NCBI RefSeq assembly: GCF_030373245.1
Contig: NZ_JAUCZF010000004.1
Span: 1 to 64,000 of the forward strand
DNA from: Hydrogenophaga sp.
Lineage (GTDB): Bacteria; Pseudomonadota; Gammaproteobacteria; Burkholderiales; Burkholderiaceae_C
Length of the DNA stretch: 64,000 nt
Direction of reading: 5' to 3'
Positions 28,946 through 56,730 of the stretch are shown piece by piece. A program made the translations under genes and the position numbers. The notes under the pieces are model-generated. The model did not search any database, was not told the origin of the DNA, and saw only the letters and a list, made by a program, of their open reading frames with translations. Each line of letters begins with the position of its first letter. Position 1 is the first letter of the stretch.

Positions 28946-29299
28946 ATGAGCATGCAAGACTACACATCCCGTCTCTCCGACCCTGCCAGCCGCAAGTTCG
29001 AAACCTTTTCCTACCTGCCGCCCATGACCGATGCGGAGATCCGAAAGCAGGTTGAGTACCTGGTGAACAAGGGCTGGAACCCCGCCATCGAGCACACCGA
29101 ACCGCGCTACCTGGGTGACTCGTACTGGTACATGTGGAAGCTGCCCATGTTTGGCGAAACCGATGTGGACCGCGTGCTGGCCGAAGCGGCGGCATGCCGC
29201 AAGGCCAACCCTGACAACCATGTTCGCCTGATTGGCTACAACAACTTCAACCAGTCGCAGGGTACTTCGATGGTCATCTATCGCGGGAAAACTGTTTAA
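28946..29299 (+). CDS. cbbS: RuBisCO small subunit, form IA
   Basis: 117 residues. [32 protein letters not shown] and [14 protein letters not shown] are small-subunit signatures. It assembles with CbbL as L8S8. AAGGA ribosome site; the gap to cbbL is 132 bases and contains a stem-loop that may set the L:S expression ratio. Confidence 0.97.
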
Positions 29300-29300
29300 C

Positions 29301-29379
29301 CCCCCGCGCCGCCTGCGGCGTCACCCTCCAGGGGGGCGATGCCTGTGGCCCGGCGAAGCCGGTTCCACGGCATCTCTGG
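29301..29379 (+). repeat. GC-rich palindromic repeat between cbbS and cbbQ
   Basis: CGCGCCGCCTGCGGCGTCAC, then CCTCCAGGGGGG and GGCCCGGCGAAGCCGG, forming three nested palindromes. The unit matches, with small changes and in the same orientation, the copy at 52005-52084; the copy at 51033-51111 is inverted. The rest of the 280-base cbbS-cbbQ gap (29380-29579) shows GCCGGCCGTAGGCCGGC, another palindrome, and no convincing gene. Confidence 0.75.
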
Positions 29380-49876: not shown

Positions 49877-50971
49877 ATGCCCACCCGCCGCCGCTTCACG
49901 CTCACGCAGTACCTCATCGAACAGCGCCGCCGCTTTCCCACCGCCAGCGGCGACTTCAACGCGCTGGTGCTCGACGTGGCACTGGCCTGCAAGGCCATCG
50001 CGCGCACCGTGGCCTTTGGCGACCTGGGCGGCATGATCGGCAGCCCCGAGGCGGTGACCACCACGGTGAACGTGCAGGGCGAAGAGCAGAAGCGGCTGGA
50101 CGTGATCAGCAACGACTACTTCATGCAGATGACGGAGTGGGGCGGTCACCTGGCGGGCATGGCCTCGGAAGAGATGGACCACCCGTACCAGATCCCGGCC
50201 ACCATCCCGCGCGGCAAGTACCTGCTGGTGTTTGATCCGCTGGACGGCTCGAGCAACATCGATGTGAACGTGACGGTCGGCAGCATCTTCAGCATCCTGC
50301 GCGCGCCACAGGACGTGATCGACAGCGGGCGCGATGTGGTCGAAGCCGACTTCTTGCAGCCCGGTACGCAGCAGATGGCTGCCGGCTACGCGCTCTACGG
50401 CCCGACCACCATGCTGGTGCTCACCGTGGGGCAGGGCGTGGCCGGCTTCACGCTCGACCCCAATCTGGGCCAGTTCATGCTCACGCACCCCAACCTCAGG
50501 GTGCCCGAAGACACGCAGGAATTTGCCATCAACGCGTCCAACAGCCGTTTCTGGGAAGCGCCCATCAAGCGCTACGTGGACGAGTGCCTGGCCGGCAAGA
50601 CCGGCCCGCGCGGCAAGGACTTCAACATGCGCTGGATCGCCAGCATGGTGGCCGAGGCGCACCGCATTCTCATGCGCGGCGGCGTCTTCATGTACCCGCG
50701 CGACACCAAGGACCTGAGCAAGAACGGCCGTCTGCGCCTGCTGTACGAAGCCAACCCGGTCGGCATGATCCTGGAGCAGGCCGGTGGCCGCGCCAGCACC
50801 GGTCGCGATCCCATGCTGAACGTCAAACCGACATCGCTGCACCAGCGTATCGGCCTGGTGTTTGGCTCCAAGAACGAGGTCGAGCGCATCGAGCGCTACC
50901 ACCGAGAACCCAGCGCCTACAAGGACGACGCCAACCCGCTGTTTGTAGAACGCTCACTTTTCCGAGACTGA
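49877..50971 (+). CDS. cbbF: fructose-1,6-bisphosphatase class 1
   Basis: 364 residues. Motifs: [25 protein letters not shown] (metal site), [14 protein letters not shown], and [16 protein letters not shown] regions. It releases phosphate from FBP in the regeneration phase; a dual SBPase role is common in this class. Its ribosome site is weak (GAAAAAAGAG). Confidence 0.96.
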
Positions 50972-51032
50972 ACTTTCAACACCATTCGATCAACCGCAGA
51001 CACCCATCCGCATCGCCTGCCGGGCTTTGTTC

Positions 51033-51111
51033 AAAACACCGCCGGGCCGGCTTTGCCGGACGGCTGGTGTTGCCCCCTTGAGGGGGTGACGCCGCAGGCG
51101 GCGCGGGGGTG
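51033..51111 (-). repeat. GC-rich palindromic repeat between cbbF and cbbP (inverted copy)
   Basis: Contains GCCGGGCCGGCTTTGCCGG, TGCCCCCTTGAGGGGGTGAC and GCCGCAGGCGGCGCGGGGG. It is the reverse complement, with some changes, of the copy at 52005-52084, so cbbP lies between inverted copies. Confidence 0.75.
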
Positions 51112-51123
51112 ATAGGAGCACAC

Positions 51124-52002
51124 ATGTCAGAACGCCACCCCATCATCGCCATCACCGGTTCCAGCGGTGCGGGCACGTCCACCGTCACGCGCACCTTCCA
51201 GAACATCTTCCGGCGAGAGGATGTCACGGCAGCCATCATCGAGGGCGACAGCTACCACCGCTACGACCGCAAGTCGATGAAGCTGCAGGCCGCCGAGCAA
51301 GAGAAGGCAGGCAATGTCAACTTCAGCCACTTCGGTGCCGAGGCCAACCTGTTCGGTGAAATCGAAACGCTGTTCAAGACCTACAGCGAGACCGGCACCG
51401 GCAAGAGCCGCAAGTACCTGCACAACGCCGAAGAGGCCGCACCCTACCAGCAGGAGCCGGGCACCTTCACGCCCTGGGAGCCGCTGCCCGATGGCACCAA
51501 CATGCTGTTCTACGAAGGCCTGCATGGCGCGGTGGTCACGCCCGAGCACAACGTGGCGCAGTACCCGGACCTGCTGGTGGGCGTGGTGCCGGTGATCAAC
51601 CTGGAGTGGATCCAGAAGCTCTACCGCGACAAGAACATGCGCGGCTACAGCGCCGACGCGGTGACCGACACCATCCTGCGCCGCATGCCCGACTACGTGA
51701 ACTACATCACTCCGCAGTTCCAGTACACGCACGTGAACTTCCAGCGCGTGCCCATCGTGGACACGTCCAACCCTTTTGTCGCGCGCGACGTGCCCACGGC
51801 CGACGAGAGCATGGTGGTGATCCGTTTCGCCAAGCCCAAGGGCATCGATTTCCCCTACCTGCTGAGCATGATCAACGGCTCGATGATGAGCCGCGCCAAC
51901 ACCATCGTGGTCCCCGGCGGCAAGATGGAGCTCGCCATGCAGCTGATCTTCACGCCCTTCATCTGGCGGATGGTGGAGCGACGTAAACGCGCTCTGGCTT
52001 GA
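51124..52002 (+). CDS. cbbP: phosphoribulokinase
   Basis: 292 residues, the bacterial class I size. It makes RuBP from Ru5P and ATP. Motifs: [17 protein letters not shown] (P-loop), [25 protein letters not shown], and [12 protein letters not shown]. Start at the ATG with AGGAG 8 bases upstream. It is bracketed by inverted palindromic repeats. Confidence 0.97.
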
Positions 52003-52004
52003 CC

Positions 52005-52084
52005 CACCCCCGCGCCGCCTGCGGCGTCGCCCCCTCCAGGGGGCAACACCTGCGGCCCGGCATAGCCGGTTCCGCGGTGTTCTG
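52005..52084 (+). repeat. GC-rich palindromic repeat between cbbP and cbbT
   Basis: CGCGCCGCCTGCGGCGTCGC, CCCCCTCCAGGGGGC and GGCCCGGCATAGCCGG; same orientation as the cbbS-cbbQ copy and nearly identical in layout. Confidence 0.75.
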
Positions 52085-52145
52085 GAACCCATCCCCTCGC
52101 TCCCTGTTGGCCCGCTTACGGTCGCCATCATTTCCAGGAAATGAC

Positions 52146-54170
52146 ATGAACAACCCCTCTCCCGAACTCGCGAAGCAGATGGCCAATGCCATTCGCATGC
52201 TGTCCGTCGATGCGGTGGAAAAGGCCAAGAGCGGCCACCCGGGTGCACCCATGGGCATGGCGGACATCGCCGAGGTGCTGTGGAACCGGCACCTGAAGCA
52301 CAACCCGGCCAACCCACACTGGCCAGACCGCGACCGCTTCGTGCTCTCCAACGGCCACGGCTCGATGCTGATCTATGCGCTGCTGCATCTCACCGGCTAT
52401 GACCTGCCCATCGATGAGCTGAAAAACTTCCGCCAGCTGCACAGCAAGACTGCCGGCCACCCCGAGGTCGGTATCACGCCCGGTGTGGAGACCACCACCG
52501 GGCCGTTGGGCCAGGGCTTCACGAATGCGGTGGGCATGGCGCTGGCCGAAAAGCTGCTGGCGGCCGAGTTCAACCGCGAGGACGAAACGGTGAGCCACCA
52601 CATCGTCGATCACTTCACCCATGTGTTTCTGGGCGATGGCTGCCTCATGGAAGGCATCAGCCACGAAGCCGGCTCACTGGCGGGCACGCTTCGCCTGTCC
52701 AAACTGATTGCCTTCTACGACGACAACGGTATTTCCATCGACGGCCATGTGGAAGGCTGGTTCACCGACGACACGCCCAAGCGCTTTGAAGCCTATGGCT
52801 GGCACGTGATCCCGGGTGTGGATGGGCACGACCCGGTCGCGGTCGAGGCCGCTCTGGTGGCGGCGAAAAAACAGGCCATGCAACCGCACGGCAAGCCCAC
52901 GCTGATCTGCTGCAAGACCGTGATCGGCATGGGTTCACCCAACAAGGCCGGCACGCACGATGTGCATGGCGCTGCGCTCGGTGCCGCTGAGGTGCAGGCC
53001 ACGCGCGACGCGCTGGGCTGGACGGCCGCGCCCTTCGAGGTGCCTGCCGAAATCGGCCTGGCCTGGAACGCCGTGGAGCGTGGCGAGACGGCCGAGCGCG
53101 CGTGGCGCCAGCGTTTCGAGGCTTATCGCGTGCAATACCCGCTGGAAGCCGCCGAGTTCGAGCGCCGCATGGCGGGCGACCTGTTGCCCGCGTTCGAAAA
53201 ACAGCTGCCGGAGCTGTTCGCGGCTGTCGCGGCCAAGGCCGACGCCATCGCCACCCGCAAGGCGAGCCAGAATGCGCTGGATCTGCTGGCGCCGCTGGTC
53301 CCCGAGTTCTTCGGTGGCAGTGCCGACCTCACCGGCTCCAACCTCACCAACTTCAAGGGCTGCGTGAAGGCCGGCCGCGATGCCTGGGGCAACCACCTGA
53401 GCTACGGCGTGCGCGAATTCGGCATGGCCGCCATCATGAACGGCATCGCGCTGCACGGCGGCTACCTCCCGTACGGTGGAACCTTTCTGACCTTCAGCGA
53501 CTACAGCCGCAACGCCATCCGCATGGCCGCGCTGATGAAGCAGCGCGTGATCCACGTGTTCACCCACGACTCCATCGGCCTGGGCGAAGACGGCCCGACC
53601 CACCAGTCGGTCGAGCATGTGCCCAGCCTGCGCATCATCCCGGGGCTGGACGTGTGGCGCCCGGCGGATGGCCTGGAGACGGCGGTGGCCTGGGTCTGTT
53701 CTGTCGAGCGCCGCGATGGGCCGAGCGCCTTGTGTCTGTCGCGCCAGAATCTGCCGCGCGTGTCCGAGCACATCACGGCGGGTCAGATCCGCAGCGGCGG
53801 TTACTCACTGTCGGACATGGAGCGTCCGCAAGCGGTGATCGTGGCCACCGGATCGGAGGTCGAGATGGCGCTGGCTGCCCAGAAGGCCCTCGCTGGCGAG
53901 GGCATTGCCACCCGCGTCGTGTCCATGCCCTGCAGCAATGTGTTCGACCGCCAGCCGCGCACCTACCAGGACCAGGTGCTGCCAATCGACTTGCCCGCGG
54001 TGGCGGTGGAAGCCGCGCACCCGGACTTCTGGCGCAAGTACGTCGGGCGCACCGGTGCCGTGGTCGGCATCGCGACCTTTGGCGAATCCGCGCCAGCCAA
54101 GGACTTGTACGCGCACTTCGGCATCACCTCAGCCAAGGTCGTCGAGGCGGTGAAGGGGCTGCTGCCATGA
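52146..54170 (+). CDS. cbbT: transketolase
   Basis: 674 residues. TPP-binding region [32 protein letters not shown]; start region [32 protein letters not shown]; catalytic loops [17 protein letters not shown] and [16 protein letters not shown]. It moves two-carbon units in RuBP regeneration. The start was chosen at the ATG with AGGA; the track start runs through the upstream repeat. Confidence 0.97.
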
Positions 54171-56010: not shown

Positions 56011-56117
56011 GCCCCTCTGCCATCGAGGGGAAGCCAGCCCAGCACACGCCGAAGATCCGGCTTCGCCGGTCCGAGGGCGTGGTCCCCCTGGGGAAGCCGC
56101 GCGGCGGCGCAGGGGGG
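56011..56117 (-). repeat. GC-rich palindromic repeat after cbbA
   Basis: CCCCTCTGCCATCGAGGGG, CCGGCTTCGCCGG and TCCCCCTGGGGAAG, then GCCGCGCGGCGGC. Oriented like the inverted copy near cbbP but more diverged. It fills most of the gap between cbbA and cytochrome c4, convergent genes, and may also act as a terminator. Confidence 0.6.
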
Positions 56118-56121
56118 AGCT

Positions 56122-56730
56122 CTACTTGCTGCTCACGTACTCGGCGACAGCGGCCATTTCCAGTTCGGTCATTTTCTCGGCCACCACGTGCATCACCGCG
56201 TTGTCGTTGGTGCGTTCGCGCTTGTTGAACGATTTGAGCTGGGTGTGGATGTAGCCCGAGAACTGGGTGGCCAGGCGGGGTAGGCTGGCCGTGCCTTCGG
56301 CCGCTGTGCCGTGGCAGCTCGCACAAGAGGGCACGCCGCTGAACTTGTTGCCGTTGTGGTAGACGTAGCGACCCATGGCGGCAAGCTGCGGGTCTTTGGC
56401 CTCTTCGCGGGGCAGACTCATTTTCTCGTAGTACTTGCCCAGGGCCAGCATTTCGTCGGGCGTGAGCTTGGCCACCATTTCGGCCATGGCGGTGCTCTTG
56501 CGCTGCCCGTTCTTGAAGGCTGCGAGCTGCTTGGCCACGTATTCGGCGTGTTGTCCGGCCAGGCGGGGAAAGATTTCACTGGTGGACTCGCCTTGTGCGC
56601 CATGGCACAGAAAGCAGGAGCCTCCAGCAATTTTCTTGGCGCGAGCTTCATCGGCCTGCGCCCAGGCAACCGAGCTGCCGAGCAGTGCCACGACGAGGCC
56701 AGCGAGTGCGGTGAATCGGACGGGTGTCAT
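56122..56730 (-). CDS. di-heme cytochrome c4
   Basis: 202 residues. The signal peptide ends SSVAWAQ. Two heme sites, CFLCHG and CASCHG, each lie in a class I cytochrome half with LPRLA-type axial Met regions. It is periplasmic and likely carries electrons from SoxF/SoxE or Sox proteins to a terminal oxidase. It follows soxF after a terminator, so it probably has its own promoter. Confidence 0.92.
   Translation of the reverse strand: MTPVRFTALAGLVVALLGSSVAWAQADEARAKKIAGGSCFLCHGAQGESTSEIFPRLAGQHAEYVAKQLAAFKNGQRKSTAMAEMVAKLTPDEMLALGKYYEKMSLPREEAKDPQLAAMGRYVYHNGNKFSGVPSCASCHGTAAEGTASLPRLATQFSGYIHTQLKSFNKRERTNDNAVMHVVAEKMTELEMAAVAEYVSSK

Follow-up and report, generated by a model that had tools for sequence, protein, structure and literature searches.

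In the cbb operon of Hydrogenophaga sp., the CO2-fixation gene cbbP lies between two inverted copies of a palindromic repeat. This arrangement raises the question whether recombination between the copies can flip the gene within its operon, or whether the repeats act in another way, for instance on the cbb mRNA. We addressed this question in the window (the whole stretch of 64,000 nucleotides analyzed, positions 1–64,000 of contig NZ_JAUCZF010000004.1), in the remainder of the genome and in related genomes.

An inverted repeat pair encloses cbbP

The gene order in this region is a CbbR-like LysR regulator (minus strand), a HAD hydrolase, rpe, fbp, cbbP, tkt, a phosphoglycolate-phosphatase-like gene and a class II aldolase. 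Within it we identified fbp, encoding a class 1 fructose-bisphosphatase (49877–50971, plus strand; NCBIfam NF006779), cbbP, encoding a phosphoribulokinase of 292 aa (51124–52002, plus strand; NCBIfam NF011997, 504 bits with a cut-off of 362), and tkt, encoding a transketolase (52146–54170, plus strand; TIGR00232, 924 bits). The closest named cbbP is that of Hydrogenophaga aromaticivorans (91% identical). A putative Shine-Dalgarno sequence of cbbP, AGGAG, can be read directly at 51114–51118 on the plus strand.

A repeat search of the window returned an inverted repeat with arms at 51032–51111 and 52005–52084, which are 80 nt long, 88% complementary and spaced by 893 nt. The sole gene between them is cbbP (51124–52002), as the first-pass annotation had recognized. 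By direct reading, the arms are identical without interruption over at most 24 nt. The core palindrome CGCCGCAGGCGGCG, allowing at most one mismatch, occurs five times in the window, where 0.54 occurrences are expected. The arms are also the top two genome-wide matches to a covariance model of the repeat family described below (98.2 and 95.6 bits), a model built from a set that included both of them. The inverted repeat pair around cbbP is real and far beyond chance.

The downstream copy (52005–52084, plus strand) is canonical and sense to the operon, and starts 3 nt past the cbbP stop codon TGA (52000–52002). It comprises hairpins A (52012–52027), B (52030–52043) and C (52045–52081), all on the plus strand, and has a computed folding energy of -47.7 kcal/mol (z -3.35). 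The upstream copy (51032–51111) is antisense to the operon, with its element sense on the minus strand, where hairpins C (51035–51071), B (51073–51086) and A (about 51089–51104) are found. Its C-rich 5′ end thus points toward cbbP and hairpin C toward fbp. This copy is located just ahead of the cbbP start codon and adjoins the putative Shine-Dalgarno sequence, with 2 nt to the start of AGGAG. The computed probability that the Shine-Dalgarno sequence is unpaired gave ambiguous values: 0.56 with the upstream copy, 0.29 without it and 0.67 with the copy flipped.

The arms belong to a dispersed family of three-hairpin repeats

Beyond the single window considered by the first-pass annotation, the repeat proved to be a genome-wide family. 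A covariance model made from the genome's own copies found at least 150 dispersed copies of approximately 80 nt with three hairpins, and a BLAST search of the same genome with the repeat gave 46 matches. The family consensus in the sense orientation is CCCCCCCGCGCCGCCTGCGGCGTCACCCCCTCCAGGGGGCGACACTGGCGGCCCGGCAAAGCCGGTTCCGCGGTGTCCTG; hairpin A is CGCCGCCTGCGGCG, hairpin B has the form CCCCC..GGGGG, and hairpin C is long and the largest of the three. A further full copy is present in the window at 29296–29377. In addition, a degenerate copy at 56046–56118 lies just past the stop codon of a minus-strand cytochrome-c-like gene (56122–56730), in agreement with the positional rule described below; as this copy is outside the 150 matches listed, the true copy number exceeds 150. 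No match was found for the region 50900–52200 among 4227 Rfam models at E-values up to 1, and our literature search on this repeat in Hydrogenophaga found none.

The alignment of the copies indicates that the pairing of hairpin C is conserved through compensatory changes. Changes on both sides were seen in 11 of its 15 pairs, and 98.9% of the cells are paired. For the whole structure, we counted 102 double-change cells versus 24 after shuffling, and the pairing was lost when the partner was shifted by 1–3 columns. In this alignment, double changes were absent from hairpins A and B. Wobble pairs were distributed asymmetrically on the sense strand, with 86 G-U and 10 A-C cells, 67 of the 86 G-U cells stemming from two fixed pairs; at the pair 58–84, U-G, C-G, G-C and A-U all occur and C-A does not. 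This asymmetry, which comes from the alignment, is suggestive but short of conclusive. The conserved pairing could instead reflect a transposase that reads the hairpin in single-stranded DNA.

Most copies follow stop codons in the sense orientation

The gene calls came from a codon-usage script in place of a curated annotation and allowed 144 of the 150 listed copies to be placed. Among these matches, 139 of the 144 are intergenic, and 127 of the 139 intergenic copies follow the stop codon of a gene on the same strand, at a median distance of 3 nt. No more than 15 nt separates the copy from the stop codon for 116 of these 127 sense copies (91%), where random placement in the same gaps predicts 31.9; none of 20,000 random-placement simulations reached 116. 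Between codirectional genes, 93 listed copies are in the sense and 9 in the antisense orientation (binomial p about 1e-18), and for 44 of the 93 sense copies the next start codon is found within 60 nt, placing them inside apparent operons. Where genes converge, each often has its own copy, with 14 such adjacent pairs within 300 nt among the listed matches.

The 12 exceptions to this rule among the listed matches, one of which is the copy upstream of cbbP, are antisense and have the C-rich end toward a start codon. The genes for GMP reductase and release factor 3 show the same bracketing, with an antisense copy before the start codon and a sense copy past the stop codon (G000:C4:188785–189935 and G000:C1:450111–451903). 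The genome-wide positional rule is more interesting than the bracket around cbbP, which is itself ordinary.

Distribution and relation to known repeat elements

Besides our own genome, 34 of 35 genomes of the genus contain the repeat family, as do 56 of the 80 further genera sampled from the family; in Achromobacter ruhlandii we counted 15 matches. One genome from a different family of the order (G253) has the repeat in tandem, with four head-to-tail units of about 86 nt each where an acyl-CoA-ligase-like reading frame ends (L264, 870–1220). The repeat was absent from the remaining sampled families of the order. No close tandem array was seen among the 150 listed copies of our genome, in which tandem neighbors are 300–1500 nt apart.

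These features probably identify the repeat as the Beta-proteobacterial repeat element (BRE), on the basis of length, GC-richness, range and tandem arrays, all compared with the published description of BRE. That description gives BRE as a GC-rich, mostly intergenic element of about 75–91 bp, dispersed through the chromosomes of Bordetella and Comamonadaceae, sometimes in tandem arrays and with no known function (Hot et al., 2011; PMC3110155). Our repeat agrees with this in its length of about 80 nt and in the intergenic location of 139 of the 144 placed copies. Its range is similar as well, with matches in Hydrogenophaga, Curvibacter, Variovorax and Polaromonas, and in Achromobacter ruhlandii on the side of Bordetella and the Alcaligenaceae, and the array in G253, which belongs to a different family of the order, provides the tandem arrangement. 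It differs in copy number, since the counts given for BRE reach at most 29 per genome, versus at least 150 here; the text consulted mentions for BRE neither a stop-codon rule nor a hairpin model nor covariation (PMC3110155).

We also considered the repetitive extragenic palindromes (REPs). GTAG- and CGTC-tagged REPs are high-copy palindromes, many of them no more than 20 bp from gene 3′ ends, in unidirectional and convergent gaps; they are single palindromes of 20–40 bp with an unpaired tag, and the GTAG repeats flank a RAYT gene (PMC3733652). Our repeat resembles these in copy number and in its position at gene 3′ ends, but differs in having three hairpins and no flanked RAYT gene. An identity with the RAYT-associated REPs was rejected, as no copies flank the transposase gene, the repeat has three hairpins in place of a single palindrome and its consensus lacks a GTAG end. 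An identity with the CGTC-tagged class was rejected as well, as the CGTC of our repeat is inside hairpin A and not at an unpaired end. The only Y1_Tnp (RAYT-type) transposase gene of the genome (L031, about 1410–2260; G000:C2 near 131472) has no convincing copy of the repeat within 1.5 kb on either side. An inverted sequence with no relation to the repeat, GGGGTCAGATTCCAATTA, flanks this gene.

A closer functional parallel is found in E. coli, where REPs located up to 15 nt from a stop codon make ribosomes stall and lower translation (Liang et al., 2015, cited in PMC12306157), and where REPs in the 3′-UTR lengthen the mRNA half-life, according to the review in PMC12306157. The same review gives the stop-proximal share of E. 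coli REPs as 260 of 496 or as 11%, depending on the set. As described there, these REPs share with our repeat that they are hairpin repeats just past a stop codon on the coding strand; at cbbP this holds for the downstream copy (3 nt past the stop codon) and not for the upstream copy. Our repeat differs from the E. coli REPs in being unrelated in sequence, about 80 nt long and composed of three hairpins, and in having 91% of 127 sense copies within 15 nt.

cbbP loci in related genomes

The comparison set comprised 112 cbbP loci, drawn from two collections with one genome per species per collection, so that some species are perhaps represented twice. Copies of the repeat flank cbbP in several arrangements: sense copies on both sides (four loci), an upstream sense copy only (three loci), a downstream sense copy only (three loci), an antisense copy upstream together with a sense copy downstream (three loci; our genome, G025 and G171) and an upstream antisense copy only (two loci; G015 and G152). 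The antisense copy before cbbP is hence common to five species. In several relatives a sense copy is present at the fbp stop codon. Congeners such as G014 have short gaps without the element at cbbP, indicating that copies have been gained or lost. For a possible in-place inversion of the upstream copy, comparison by eye showed no resemblance between the spacer after fbp and the reversed spacer of the relatives.

In G015 and G023, the cbbP-tkt gap lacks the downstream copy and contains another GC-rich repeat of palindromic form, CCTTCCCCCAGAGGGGGAAGG and CCCTCCCCCGCTGGGGGAGGG (L116, about 2380–2580, and L114, about 2380–2560). Several repeat families may use this same gap. At three other loci (L115, L121 and L122) the element appears to overlap the 3′ end of cbbP, and in these congeners its sequence may supply the last cbbP codons and the stop codon.

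Proposed function

From the observed position, orientation and conserved pairing, we infer that the repeat is a transcribed 3′ element. With moderate confidence, we favor the reading that it is a stop-proximal array of RNA hairpins that tunes mRNA 3′-end stability and/or translation, that the copies at cbbP are members of this family, and that the bracket around cbbP is not invertible. Located just past the stop codon on the coding strand, the repeat would be transcribed as a three-hairpin RNA. In the message of the gene that precedes it, the hairpins would block 3′ exonucleases and/or slow ribosomes that reach the stop codon, which could give the genes within an operon different expression levels. 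The precedent of the E. coli stop-proximal and 3′-UTR REPs, as described in the review (PMC12306157), is one reason for preferring an effect on the 3′ end or on translation termination. The copy after cbbP would be a standard member, and the copy before cbbP a separate antisense one that a few species of the genus have inherited; that the latter breaks the stop-codon rule counts against our reading. The proposal of the first-pass annotation that the hairpins may protect or divide the cbb mRNA is, in its general form, compatible with these data, in that the copies are sense-oriented, abut stop codons and are conserved in their pairing.

The main rivals to an effect on the 3′ end or on termination of translation are partial transcription termination and a selfish origin. 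A terminator acting fully or partially where genes end, such as a Rho-dependent one, would divide the cbb transcript, and could account for the location past stop codons, for the strong GC-rich hairpins, and for the 14 adjacent convergent pairs within 300 nt with one copy per gene end. A scan found no stem followed by a T-run at either cbbP copy, however, and the family consensus lacks a U-tract; an intrinsic terminator was therefore rejected. The absence of such a site from the scan and the location of 44 of the 93 codirectional copies inside apparent operons, with the next start codon within 60 nt, make intrinsic termination unlikely, and we consider a terminator role of any type improbable.

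A selfish or passively spread element, to which we also assign a low probability, would have insertions that survive only past stop codons because they are harmful elsewhere, or a mobilizing enzyme that targets such sites, while a transposase acting on single-stranded DNA would maintain the pairing. Strand-specific hairpins are a feature of TnpA-REP systems, and those of our repeat fit this explanation, as do the high copy number, the presence or absence at the same gap between congeners and the tandem arrays in another family. On the other hand, copies of the repeat do not flank the sole Y1_Tnp gene of the genome, and if purifying selection were the only force, copies should be scattered over the downstream gap and not have a median distance of 3 nt.

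Two explanations concern the inverted pair itself. If both cbbP copies paired within one mRNA, the resulting long double strand could be cut by RNase III and release a cbbP messenger, and the computed duplex is indeed more stable than the two local folds (-165 vs. -98 kcal/mol); yet local hairpins form first during transcription, the arms are 893 nt apart across a translated gene, and four species have direct copies while the inverted arrangement occurs in only three of the species examined, for which last reason we give this very little weight. Equally remote is an invertible cassette, in which homologous recombination between the arms would switch CO2 fixation off and on by flipping cbbP: the repeats around the gene are inverted, as they are in such cassettes, with 88% similarity between the arms and 24 nt of uninterrupted identity, but no inverted isomer was seen, with cbbP codirectional with fbp at 108 of 108 loci and with tkt at 76 of 76 (loci where the neighbor was found), the inverted arrangement limited to three of the loci examined, against four with direct copies and five with an antisense upstream copy in all, and a run of 24 nt being close to the shortest that supports RecA-dependent recombination in E. 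coli. The flipping of cbbP suggested by the first-pass annotation is not supported by these data, including the direct orientation of the copies in four genomes that have one on each side. The inverted bracket is incidental, the result of two separate placements, and no invertible cassette.

Returning to the stop-proximal hairpin array that we favor, a more far-reaching version would be a family-wide, stop-codon-linked RNA device, with RNA structure under selection, that sets relative gene output within operons including cbb without a REP transposase, rather than a merely tolerated repeat; this we put forward only tentatively and regard as rather doubtful. In this genome, a repeat that is probably BRE, whose function has been unassigned since 2011, follows a strict rule: it is in the sense orientation, a few nucleotides from a stop codon, and compensatory changes maintain its pairing. 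With this rule, one can directly test whether the repeat acts in mRNA stability or in translation termination, and the congeners offer natural presence and absence of the element at the same operon.
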